A stretch of 64,000 bases of DNA, taken from positions 62,001 to 126,000 of the forward strand of contig JACAEL010000014.1 in NCBI GenBank assembly GCA_013388835.1. Direction: 5' to 3'. This DNA is from Candidatus Thorarchaeota archaeon (GTDB lineage Archaea; Asgardarchaeota; Thorarchaeia; Thorarchaeales; Thorarchaeaceae). The position numbers and the translations under genes were made by a program. How positions within the stretch are numbered: position 1 is the stretch's first letter; each line of letters starts with the position of its first letter. Positions 5,501-11,559 of this stretch are shown here, in pieces. Under the pieces are notes generated by a model. The model saw only the letters and a program-made list of their open reading frames with translations. It was not told the DNA's origin and made no database searches.

Positions 5501-6856
5501 TTGACCCATCTCTTCGGTACAAATGGAGTACGTGGGGTCATCAACTCCGAGCTCACTGTCGACATGGTCCTAGACATAGCCCGTGCAGTCGGAACGGTCT
5601 TGGGACCTGCGCCGATTGCAGTGTCTAGAGACTCGCGGATGGGCGGGGACATGTATCTGTCGGCGGTCGTGTCCGGTCTGCTGTCCACCGGTTGCAGTGT
5701 TGTCGACATTGGGCCTGCCCCAACTCCGACTCTTCAGTATGCCATACCGCGCATTCGATGTGCCGGCGGAGTGATGGTCACCGCATCTCACAATCCGCCG
5801 AGGTTCAGTGGGGTGAAGGTGATCGGTGCTGATGGCATTGAGGTCAGTCGTGAAGTGGAGGCCCGCATCGAGAGCGTTTATTTCGCGAAGTCCTTCAGGA
5901 ACGTGAGCTGGACAGAGATACGAGGAGTCACCCGTGACGATTCACCCATTCGCAGTTACATCGATGCAATCAAGTCGAAGGTGAACTCTGAGGCCATACG
6001 AAAGCGGTCGCTGAAGGTAGTCGTGGATGGGGCCAACAGCGTCGGCTCACTTGTGACTCCACTTCTTCTTCGGGAGCTTGGCTGTCATGTGGTGAGCATA
6101 AACGCTCAGATGGATGGGCACTTTCCGGGTCGAGAACCAGAACCACTGCCCGAGAACATCACTTTCCTCAGTCAGGCTGTCAAGTCCCTCGGCGCAGACC
6201 TTGGAATCGCACATGACGGGGACGCTGACCGTGCCACATTCGTGGACGAGAGAGGACAGGTCCTATGGGGCGACCAGTCCTTTGCCATAGTCGCCTCTCG
6301 TGTGTTGAGGCGGATGAAGGACTCGGTGCTTGTCACGCCGGTGAGTAGCGGGCGGCTGATTGAGGACGTTGCCAGAGACGCGGGGGCACGAGTGGAATGG
6401 ACACGCGTGGGGAGCGTAGTGGTGTCTCACAGGCTGGTCGAGATTGGTGCACAACTGGGTGGCGAGGAGAATGGGGGTGTGTTCTATCCGCTCCATCAAC
6501 CAGTCCGAGACGGAGCGATGACTGCAGCTCTGATAGTCGAGATCATGTCGACCGAGGAGAAGTCACTCTCGCGACTGGTCGCTGAGTTGCCGGTCTACTA
6601 CAACAAGAAGTCAAAGGTCCCGGTTCCACCTGAGAAGGAGGAGTCGGTTCTGCCATCACTCTTGCAAATGACAGATGGTATGCAGAGAGTCACACTTGAT
6701 GGAGTAAAAGTGATCTACGACGAAGGGTGGGTCCTCATGCGTCCCTCAGGAACTGAGCCGCTGTGGAGGTGTTTCGCGGAAGGAAGGAGTCTCGAGTCCG
6801 CAACACACCTCTGCAAGCTGGGCGAAGACATGATTCGGAGCGCAGCTGGCTTGTGA
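5501..6856 (+). CDS. glmM: Phosphoglucosamine mutase / phosphohexomutase
   Basis: Alpha-D-phosphohexomutase that moves phosphate between C1 and C6 of hexose phosphates; the archaeal GlmM/phosphomannomutase group feeds UDP-GlcNAc or GDP-mannose synthesis. Four family motifs are intact: phosphoserine loop TASHNPP (Ser96), metal-binding DGDADR (Asp239/241/243), sugar-binding GEENGG (321-326) and phosphate-binding RPSGTEP (414-420). N-terminal FGTNGVRG is GlmM-like. The 451-aa length is normal. Translation starts at TTG 5501 after GGTGAT. Substrate preference between GlcN and Man/Glc cannot be fixed from motifs alone. It converges on the DPM2-like gene, with a terminator hairpin between. Confidence 0.9.
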   Translation: MTHLFGTNGVRGVINSELTVDMVLDIARAVGTVLGPAPIAVSRDSRMGGDMYLSAVVSGLLSTGCSVVDIGPAPTPTLQYAIPRIRCAGGVMVTASHNPPRFSGVKVIGADGIEVSREVEARIESVYFAKSFRNVSWTEIRGVTRDDSPIRSYIDAIKSKVNSEAIRKRSLKVVVDGANSVGSLVTPLLLRELGCHVVSINAQMDGHFPGREPEPLPENITFLSQAVKSLGADLGIAHDGDADRATFVDERGQVLWGDQSFAIVASRVLRRMKDSVLVTPVSSGRLIEDVARDAGARVEWTRVGSVVVSHRLVEIGAQLGGEENGGVFYPLHQPVRDGAMTAALIVEIMSTEEKSLSRLVAELPVYYNKKSKVPVPPEKEESVLPSLLQMTDGMQRVTLDGVKVIYDEGWVLMRPSGTEPLWRCFAEGRSLESATHLCKLGEDMIRSAAGL

Positions 6857-6895
6857 AACCAGCGAGCGTCACCATCGTAGATAGAACTCACGAGA

Positions 6896-6921
6896 TGAGG
6901 AAGACCGGGTGGCCTTCCTCA
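6896..6921. terminator. Hairpin between convergent glmM and DPM2-like genes
   Basis: TGAGGAAG (6896-6903) pairs perfectly with CTTCCTCA (6914-6921) across a 10-nt loop. It lies in the 90-nt gap between two convergent genes, where a bidirectional terminator would be expected. There is no long U-tract, so the role is inferred from position and pairing. Confidence 0.5.
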
Positions 6922-6946
6922 CTCAGATTGTGATCCCGAGAATGAC

Positions 6947-7297
6947 CTACTGGGTCTTCTCTTCCTTCTTCTCTTCCTTCTTCTCTCCCGACACGGACTC
7001 CTCATCGAAGTCGAAGTCCTCGAGAGGCTCAGGGGCGGGTGTGGTGAGCATGGTCCAGCCAATCCACATTGCAATCACACATATCAGGACTGCAGCCAGC
7101 CAGACCGGAAGGATGATCAGAAACATCGGGTCTGGAGCGAGAATCTGGTCAAGGATCGTTCCTGCACCGAAGGTAGTATGGACCCAGTCTCCGAGGCTTG
7201 GAATCAACTTCAGAAGGACAAGTCCCCATGTATAGTACACCATGACTAGTAGCGCCAGGATAAGCATCAATGCGCCTGCAATCTTCTCTTTGCCCAT
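6947..7297 (-). CDS. DPM2-like two-helix membrane protein
   Basis: 116-aa protein with two transmembrane helices (~7-32 and ~58-82) and an acidic/lysine-rich cytosolic tail ending KKEEKKEEKTQ. Helix 1, KIAGALMLILALLVMVYYTW followed by LVLLKLIP, resembles the first helix of eukaryotic DPM2 ([20 protein letters not shown] then VILLPFID), including the YYT-x-W/G turn and the aliphatic-Pro/Ile end. Spacing to helix 2 is also similar. DPM2 is the regulatory/stabilising subunit of dolichol-phosphate-mannose synthase and also associates with GPI-GlcNAc transferase. The assignment is by eye, with no database search. Nearby GlmM and polyprenol-phosphate genes are consistent with glycosylation. A TATA-like box lies about 55 nt upstream. 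Confidence 0.5.
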   Translation of the reverse strand: MGKEKIAGALMLILALLVMVYYTWGLVLLKLIPSLGDWVHTTFGAGTILDQILAPDPMFLIILPVWLAAVLICVIAMWIGWTMLTTPAPEPLEDFDFDEESVSGEKKEEKKEEKTQ

Positions 7298-7351
7298 TTA
7301 TCCGTCTCCTGAGTGGGAGTTATGGAACTGATTCCATGACGGCTTCGTCTA

Positions 7352-7377
7352 TCATAAAAGGATTACGCAGCTGCGTA
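7352..7377 (-). promoter_or_regulatory. TATA-like box with adjacent 14-bp palindrome
   Basis: Read on the minus strand, CCTTTTATGATAG (around 7352-7360) is a TATA-like element about 25-30 nt before the expected transcription start of the DPM2-like gene. Just upstream lies the perfect palindrome TACGCAGCTGCGTA (7364-7377), in the position of an archaeal BRE or activator/operator site. It could also serve the divergent etfBA genes. Confidence 0.4.
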
Positions 7378-7499
7378 TATTCCGTCGGCGCAGGTGACAA
7401 CGTACGTCTGGTGCAAGCCCAGATGAGCCGTCCGGACTTCGGTTCGAGTCGTAGTCGTCGTTCGTGTGCTCCGTGTTCCTTGCTTGTCCTCGTGCGCAT

Positions 7500-7508
7500 T
7501 GCTTATAA
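7500..7508 (+). promoter_or_regulatory. TATA box upstream of etfBA
   Basis: The element TGCTTATAATG lies about 25 nt before the expected transcription start and 35-60 nt before the etfB start codon, matching the archaeal TATA consensus. It predicts a short 5' leader. Confidence 0.45.
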
Positions 7509-7568
7509 TGGGCGCAGTTCAGTCTGCGGGCCACAGCAAAGATGGGAACTCACTCTGAGGTGCGTGCG

Positions 7569-9936: not shown

Positions 9937-10734
9937 TTGGTATTCAGTCCACTCGGTCCGGGAATGGAACTCGTCTGGGACATAGTCGCAATGGTCATCT
10001 CGATACTGGCCGTAATGCTGGTTGTCCTGATTAACGGAGCGATCCAGAAGGGCGGCAAGCTGTCTTCAGACGTGACGCGGAAGATTGTCCATATCTTCGC
10101 AGGACCAGTCTTCTTGGTCACTTGGCCACTCTATACAGGGGGACTCCTGAGCAGAGTCATCGCGGCTGTGGTGCCCATCCTCTTTGTCCTGCTCTTCGTG
10201 GGCATTGGGACTGGAAAGGTGAAGAACGAGGCCTTTGTCGCGTCCATGTCTAGGTCGGGGAAACCGGAAGAGCTGCTTAAGGGAACGCTCTACTATGCCA
10301 TATGGATTGTTATCATCACGCTGCTATGGTTCTACGTCCCGCCCGCAGGTCTGGCCAGTGCCAGTCCTCTTGCACTGATTATCATCGGGTGCGTTGCTGG
10401 TGGCGATGGCATGGCCGACATAGTCGGGCGGAAGTACGGAGGCGAACGGAAATTCGGTATTGGTGGAGCACAGAAGACAGTCGCTGGCTCCTTTGGGATG
10501 TTGATTGGCTCCCTTGTGTTCTGTAGTGCACTCGTCCTGATATTCTCGCTTGAAGCCGGCTTCAGCTTGATTGCCATGTTTCCAGTCATCCTCATCATAA
10601 GCATAGTGGCTACTCTGGTCGAAGCGCTCAGTCCTAGCAGTCTGGACAACTGGACAGTACCAATCTCGGTGGTCATCGTAGCGGCTGTGCTCAGCTCTGT
10701 AACGATGTGGTCATTCCCGCTTCTCACGCTGTGA
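9937..10734 (+). CDS. Dolichol/phytol kinase-like CTP-dependent polyprenol kinase
   Basis: 265-aa multi-pass membrane protein (about seven helices) of the SEC59/VTE5 family (COG0170), which phosphorylates polyprenols such as dolichol or phytol using CTP. Signatures: VTRKIVHIFAGP after helix 1, GGDGMADIVGRKYGG, the KFG-x-GG-x-QKTVAGS-x-GM-x-GS loop and EALSPSSLDNWTVP in the C-terminal region. Start TTG 9937 is placed by a strong AAGGAGGA eight nt upstream. The isopentenyl phosphate kinase gene follows by 3 nt, so the pair is very likely an operon for isoprenoid phosphate supply. Which alcohol it uses is inference. Confidence 0.82.
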   Translation: MVFSPLGPGMELVWDIVAMVISILAVMLVVLINGAIQKGGKLSSDVTRKIVHIFAGPVFLVTWPLYTGGLLSRVIAAVVPILFVLLFVGIGTGKVKNEAFVASMSRSGKPEELLKGTLYYAIWIVIITLLWFYVPPAGLASASPLALIIIGCVAGGDGMADIVGRKYGGERKFGIGGAQKTVAGSFGMLIGSLVFCSALVLIFSLEAGFSLIAMFPVILIISIVATLVEALSPSSLDNWTVPISVVIVAAVLSSVTMWSFPLLTL

Positions 10735-10737
10735 TAG

Positions 10738-11559
10738 GTGGTGCAGGTCTTGACTGGAGATGTGACAGTTCTGAAACTGGGTGGCTCGCTCCTCACTGAC
10801 AAGTCGAAGCCCTACACGGCCAGAGAGGATGTGATTAGGCGGGTCGCCCATGACATCAGGGACTGTCTGGACTCCGGGCTGCTCCAGTCCCTTGTGCTGC
10901 TTCATGGAGTCGGGTCGTTTGGGCACCCGCCGGTGCTCGAGCATGGACTGCACAAGGGCTTCAGAGACAAGTCGCAGCTGATGCCTCTCACCCGGACACA
11001 ACAGAAGGTGAACGAGTACAGGCTCATGCTGGTGAAACACATGCATGAGGCAGGGCTCCCTGTGAACCTGATGCATCCATCCTCGATGATTGTTTCCGAG
11101 GGGATGCGGATATCCAGTTGGTGTCTTGACCCACTCAAGGGGTATCTTGACCTTGGAACGATACCGTTCTTGGGCGGGGACGTTATATTCGACCGCAAGA
11201 TGGGGTTCAGTGTCGGCAGCGCTGACCAGATGGCTGTACTATTGACACGTGAGCTATCAGCCAAGCGGCTGCTCTTTGCCACCGATGTTGCTGGCGTCTT
11301 TGACAGGAGCCCGAAGGCGGCGGGGGCGAGGTTTATGCCCGAGATTCACCTGAAAGACCTTGACCGGCTCTTCGCGGAGATGGGCGCAACAGGGGCAGTG
11401 GATGCAACTGGCGCAATGAAGGGGAAGCTCTCATCGCTCCTGCCAATCGCAGACATGATTGAGAAGGGACTTGAGGTTTCGATTCTCTCATTGATGCGAG
11501 AGGGGAGTCTGCGGAGTCACCTGACTGGGAGTCTGGACTGCACACGGATTCGTGCTTGA
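10738..11559 (+). CDS. ipk: Isopentenyl phosphate kinase
   Basis: Amino-acid-kinase-fold enzyme that converts isopentenyl phosphate plus ATP to isopentenyl diphosphate, the last step of the archaeal mevalonate route. Visible motifs: VLKLGGSLLTDKSKP (N-terminal Gly-rich loop with the catalytic Lys13), LLHGVGSFGHPPV containing the IPK-diagnostic histidine (His56), the FLGGDVIFD strand, VGSADQMAVLL and the ATP-binding ATDVAGVFD segment. 273 aa is normal. Start GTG 10738, with GTG 10741 and TTG 10750 as alternatives. Co-transcribed with the polyprenol kinase. Confidence 0.92.
   Translation: MVQVLTGDVTVLKLGGSLLTDKSKPYTAREDVIRRVAHDIRDCLDSGLLQSLVLLHGVGSFGHPPVLEHGLHKGFRDKSQLMPLTRTQQKVNEYRLMLVKHMHEAGLPVNLMHPSSMIVSEGMRISSWCLDPLKGYLDLGTIPFLGGDVIFDRKMGFSVGSADQMAVLLTRELSAKRLLFATDVAGVFDRSPKAAGARFMPEIHLKDLDRLFAEMGATGAVDATGAMKGKLSSLLPIADMIEKGLEVSILSLMREGSLRSHLTGSLDCTRIRA

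Follow-up and report, generated by a model that had tools for sequence, protein, structure and literature searches.

A near-universal two-helix membrane protein of Asgard archaea as a probable co-orthologue of DPM2 and PIG-P

We describe a small gene in a 64,000-nucleotide stretch of archaeal DNA (the window) whose product belongs, by profile comparison, to the membrane protein family that includes eukaryotic DPM2 and PIG-P, and whose relatives are conserved in nearly all Asgard genomes. DPM2 is the regulatory subunit of dolichol-phosphate-mannose (DPM) synthase and PIG-P is a subunit of the GPI-GlcNAc transferase. In eukaryotes, N-glycosylation, O-mannosylation and GPI anchors all draw on DPM synthase, which DPM2 links to GPI synthesis. 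Taking the evidence as a whole, we consider it reasonably probable that the Asgard protein is a co-orthologue of both DPM2 and PIG-P, that it forms a hairpin with its ends in the cytoplasm, and that it is the partner of a glycosyltransferase acting on a lipid-linked sugar.

The reading frame is intact from its ATG start to its stop codon. Hydropathy analysis identified two hydrophobic segments, at about residues 1-35 and 52-88, and an AlphaFold2 model, computed with the family alignment as input, supports a two-helix hairpin with a mean pLDDT of 87.6, in which the loop between the helices is predicted to be helical and the acidic tail is uncertain. Helix 1 opens with K-E-K-x-x-G and carries the motif YYTW at residues 21-24, while helix 2 ends in W-I-G-x-T-M-x-T-T-P. 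Gly8 in helix 1 and Trp78 and Gly80 in helix 2 are invariant in all 31 aligned family members. The tail is predicted from its charge to be cytoplasmic. A phmmer search of PDB sequences with the window ORF, human DPM2 and human PIG-P returned no relative and no solved DPM2 or PIG-P chain, and a Foldseek search of the model against the PDB gave no match, which says little for a hairpin that has no solved relative. The coordinates are collected in Table 1.

Table 1. Positions in the window of the hairpin gene, its predicted parts and two nearby genes
Feature	Position	Strand	Basis
GlmM, archaeal phosphoglucosamine mutase, convergent neighbour	5501..6856	+	TIGR03990, 541 bits (cut-off 439)
DPM2/PIG-P family two-helix membrane protein, 116 aa	6947..7297	-	ORF, Pfam, family conservation, profile match
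Charged tail, residues 86-116	6950..7042	-	Sequence; pLDDT about 63-69 from residue 91
Predicted second membrane helix, residues 57-85	7043..7129	-	AlphaFold2 helix
Predicted first membrane helix, residues 2-31	7205..7294	-	AlphaFold2 helix; hhalign register
Isopentenyl phosphate kinase (isoprenoid precursor synthesis), context only	10738..11559	+	NF040647, 150 bits (cut-off 120)

Among named organisms, the closest relatives of the host are Candidatus Thorarchaeota, with contigs that are 64-70% identical, and we therefore assign it to a Thorarchaeia-type Asgard archaeon, as the original prediction had suspected in calling the host Asgard-like. A first whole-genome search of relatives found the gene in 51 of 59, in all 22 high-quality genomes and in many families of the phylum. 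A profile made from an alignment of 31 members and run against 228 Asgard genomes identified the family in 201 of them (42/45 high-quality genomes and 59/62 genera), usually as a single copy. The scope of the family search was the Asgard phylum plus control genomes, and Pfam DPM2 and PIG-P searches of the control genomes outside the phylum matched neither. Below, labels of the type f1 denote the numbered Asgard families of the genome search, f1 being that of the window, and G denotes a genome.

When the window protein was compared with 24,736 models, Pfam DPM2 (PF07297) was the top match (E = 4.5e-4, 20.9 bits, curated cut-off 27.3) and Pfam PIG-P (PF08510) was second (8e-4, 19.7 bits). A direct PF07297 search of its own genome at 1e-3 returned no match, the window protein falling just below. 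It is easy to overstate homology between membrane proteins of two helices, and PIG-P itself is a published example of false homology arising from membrane helices (PMC2912341). In view of that precedent and of a Pfam match that was no more than suggestive for the window protein, several controls were run. Orthologues in G047 and G038, which the window protein reaches directly at 1e-13, scored 42-45 bits against DPM2, comfortably above its cut-off, and the best orthologue score was 44.8 bits (1.5e-11). DPM2 was matched by 22 of the 31 family members and PIG-P by 16, compared with none of ten reversed members for either model. With human sequences whose identity was checked by their own Pfam scores alone (108 bits for DPM2, 149 for PIG-P), hhalign aligned the family to DPM2 over 74 columns (score 67.9, probability 97.8) and to PIG-P over 80 columns (score 61.3, probability 96.9). 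The 600 locally shuffled DPM2/PIG-P decoys, which preserve helix pattern and composition, scored at most 31.4, and reversed human DPM2 had a probability of 0.7. At PDB search size the family HMM gave 2.8e-10 for human PIG-P and 4.6e-9 for human DPM2, while the best of 177,635 PDB sequences reached 0.09; that match, to yeast V-ATPase subunit f, is at noise level.

These controls bear on convergence, in which the Asgard protein would be an unrelated small membrane protein that has arrived at a similar hydrophobic hairpin. Such a history would suit proteins that are short and hydrophobic, ten of which give weak matches to a phage holin model (5e-5 at best), and it would fit the published warnings about PIG-P (PMC2912341) and the fact that Pfam PIG-P also matches an apparently unrelated multi-helix protein in f2. 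It is hard to reconcile with the shuffle, reversal and PDB controls, with polar and glycine positions that are shared in the same helix order (a D/E-K/Q-x-x-G start, YT, and an M-x-x-T end), or with an independent published gene-family analysis (PMC12872463), and we regard convergence as highly improbable. The holin model also weakly matched a reversed sequence, so we rejected a holin identity as hydrophobic background. The f2 frames, of about 255-260 aa (L191/G191, L192/G182), belong to a different conserved multi-helix protein and their PIG-P matches are false weak hits. We conclude from the orthologue scores and the reversal, shuffle and PDB controls that homology of the Asgard hairpin to DPM2 is well supported, as far as sequence allows for a protein of two helices. 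The original prediction had described a two-helix protein whose first helix and YYT-W turn resemble DPM2, and had proposed homology; hydropathy and the modelled hairpin bear out the first point, the likeness exceeds chance, and the homology holds.

Its narrower claim, that the protein is specifically DPM2, did not survive comparison with PIG-P, which matches equally well. The two Pfam E-values of the window protein and the two hhalign scores are equal within error, and the family HMM favours PIG-P slightly. Human DPM2 matched the PIG-P model at 1.8e-4 and human PIG-P matched the DPM2 model at 9.3e-4, and the distance between the human proteins is about that from the window ORF to each. A tree that included the human sequences (about 100 columns, human branches of 2.6-2.9) did not settle which of the two is nearer. 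The Asgard family resembles DPM2 in being a stand-alone two-helix protein of similar size with the helix-1 YYT and matching G and AIP/LP positions, and in having orthologues that pass the PF07297 cut-off; the window protein departs from human DPM2 in having a longer loop and, beyond helix 2, a TTP-P motif and an extended acidic tail. The two-helix part also aligns with PIG-P, along with an M-x-T-x-P motif after helix 2, but where PIG-P has a C-terminal globular region the window protein has a short acidic tail. The curated PIG-P cut-off is reached nowhere in the phylum (best 38.2 bits versus 39.3).

Since PIG-P matches as well as DPM2, we regard the Asgard protein as a co-orthologue of both and not as DPM2 as such, and the simplest reading of the sequence comparisons is that it has been kept from before the DPM2/PIG-P split, an order of divergence that we infer. 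This agrees with a dating study that has DPM2 and PIGP arising by duplication before LECA, within a gene family that came from archaea (PMC12872463). It also agrees with an Asgard origin reported for GPI-GnT, a seven-subunit complex (PMC12872458). The gene described here is of the type that PMC12872463 proposes as the ancestor; unlike the present gene-level data, the main-text passages of that study name no archaeal gene, context or partner. The archaeal ancestry of DPM2/PIG-P is already in print in these two studies. Our addition is to point to the gene and describe its distribution, to show that it is equally close to DPM2 and to PIG-P, to report that DPM3 is missing, and to name a candidate for its partner.

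That candidate is a DPM1-type GT2 glycosyltransferase of 244 aa, encoded at 6819-7550 of another contig of the same genome, contig 23 of G000, which matches the catalytic part of the P. furiosus DPM synthase at 5.7e-41 and ends before any membrane helix, as human DPM1 does. An enzyme of this layout would need a membrane partner, and we infer that it is the best candidate in this organism. DPM1-like genes were detected at 1e-20 in 62 of 228 genomes, versus 201 for the hairpin, and three fairly complete Thorarchaeia genomes that carry the hairpin (G012, G020, G009) gave no DPM1-like match even at 1e-3. The hairpin is therefore present where a DPM1-like enzyme was not detected, and its partner may differ between lineages. 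DPM3 (PF08285) was not found in the 228 Asgard genomes at Pfam sensitivity, in a search whose controls included no genome known to hold it; the sole match, in G146, was a 420-aa frame of an unrelated kind. The original prediction had proposed an archaeal ancestor for the DPM complex. The archaeal descent of DPM2/PIG-P stands, as already published (PMC12872463; PMC12872458), whereas a whole archaeal DPM complex is not supported, DPM3 being absent from the phylum at this sensitivity.

The same evidence bears on whether the protein is DPM2 proper, that is, a regulatory subunit devoted to an archaeal dolichol-phosphate-mannose synthase and paired with a DPM1. We think this rather unlikely. DPM2 is the top Pfam model and a helix-less DPM1-type GT2 is at hand in the genome, but the equal match to PIG-P, the lack of DPM3 and the hairpins in genomes without a detected DPM1-like enzyme speak against a dedicated subunit, and the adjoining GlmM points to UDP-GlcNAc, not GDP-mannose.

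The placement near GlmM was correctly anticipated by the original prediction, the mutase gene adjoining the hairpin gene. As for the polyprenol-phosphate genes that it placed nearby, the isopentenyl phosphate kinase gene lies 3.4 kb away, and a 265-aa membrane protein encoded at 9937-10731 (+) matched no Pfam or NCBIfam family. By eye, a motif in the latter, which directly precedes the kinase, resembles dolichol or phytol kinases. A GlmM-type mutase lies beside the hairpin gene in f1, f3 and f10; the order in f3, on one strand, is GlmM-type mutase, SIS-domain protein and hairpin, and f10 has a phosphohexomutase gene ahead of the hairpin gene, again on one strand. A sugar nucleotidyltransferase is found nearby in f9 (with a UDP-GlcNAc 2-epimerase as well in one genome) and in f6, together with a DegT aminotransferase, and a GFO/IDH/MocA oxidoreductase lies nearby in f16. 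Read from the neighbour lists, sugar activation is the recurring theme, and ribosomal genes recur too. The neighbours differ from one Asgard family to another, and some of them, the ribosomal genes for instance, are probably incidental. In f18 (L059, L062, L066, L070) the hairpin gene is short, has a loop as long as that of the eukaryotic proteins, and is flanked by two small conserved genes that by eye resemble NAC alpha and V/A-ATPase subunit F.

A neighbourhood of this kind could indicate a PIG-P-like role, in which the hairpin would be the membrane component of a transferase that uses UDP-GlcNAc and acts on a lipid, an evolutionary precursor of the GPI-GlcNAc transferase. The GlmM-type neighbours in three families, the similarity to PIG-P with its slightly better family HMM score, and the published Asgard origin of GPI-GnT (PMC12872458) are all consistent with such a role. 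PIG-C (PF06432), however, was over its cut-off in none of the 228 Asgard genomes at Pfam sensitivity, again with no control genome known to hold it; the PIG-A domain was found in just 8 of 228 genomes, over its cut-off in 3 and in none of the contigs of this genome; and no member passes the PIG-P cut-off. We consider a PIG-P-like role quite unlikely.

Under the co-orthologue reading, a single ancestral gene, later duplicated, would have given rise to both DPM2 and PIG-P, and the Asgard ORF would descend from the same gene. The product of the Asgard ORF would be a membrane hairpin, predicted to have its two ends in the cytoplasm, and would most likely bind, position or activate a glycosyltransferase on the cytoplasmic side that itself has few membrane helices or none. 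This enzyme would make a polyprenyl-phosphate-linked or other lipid-linked sugar. By analogy with DPM2, the hairpin might keep the glycosyltransferase at its lipid and boost its activity or stability. Phe21 and Tyr23 in helix 1 of DPM2 are required for DPM1 binding (Maeda 1998, as cited in PMC10154465). The hhalign alignment places Met19 and Tyr21 of the window protein at these positions, so that Tyr21 could correspond to the DPM1-binding Tyr23; the matching residue is Tyr in 13 of 31 members and the next Tyr is commoner (21/31). DPM synthase is not the only target of DPM2 and of its yeast counterpart, which also act on GPI-GnT (PMC7728079), and a hairpin that serves more than one transferase would therefore be normal for the DPM2/PIG-P family. 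In the type III DPM synthase of P. furiosus, the first helix of each membrane hairpin is reported to resemble human DPM2 (PMC5526996). Like the Asgard hairpin, the membrane domains of that enzyme are helix hairpins, and they serve a DPM synthase; there they are fused to the enzyme, whereas in Asgards the hairpin is a separate gene.

A bolder version, which we hold to be very doubtful, is that the protein is a living pre-duplication DPM2/PIG-P that acts as a general membrane adaptor for several lipid-sugar transferases, that in f15 it had already split into DPM2-leaning and PIG-P-leaning copies, and that the divergence of the eukaryotic pair may thus have started before eukaryotes. For the co-orthologue reading that we prefer, a near-universal and mostly single-copy Asgard gene offers a concrete protein with which the job of the ancestral hairpin can be tested. 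The same gene lets one ask whether separate membrane subunits of lipid-sugar synthases existed before the endoplasmic reticulum.

Additional copies of the hairpin were observed in a few genomes. A second, divergent copy with the tail motif Y-E-x-A-Y-E is present in f15 (L184/G087, L187/G094, L188/G091), where in three genomes it adjoins, or is one gene away from, a PlsC-type acyltransferase (PF01553). Most of these second copies score higher against PIG-P than against DPM2, and the main copy mostly leans to DPM2. On contig 301 of G091 (L171) a third copy carries a fused helix-hairpin-helix domain (HHH_5, 9e-14). Finally, a 184-aa frame on contig 3 of G042, at about 595-1002 (L063, L183), contains two tandem DPM2-like hairpins, an arrangement reminiscent of the doubled hairpins in the Pyrococcus DPM synthase.
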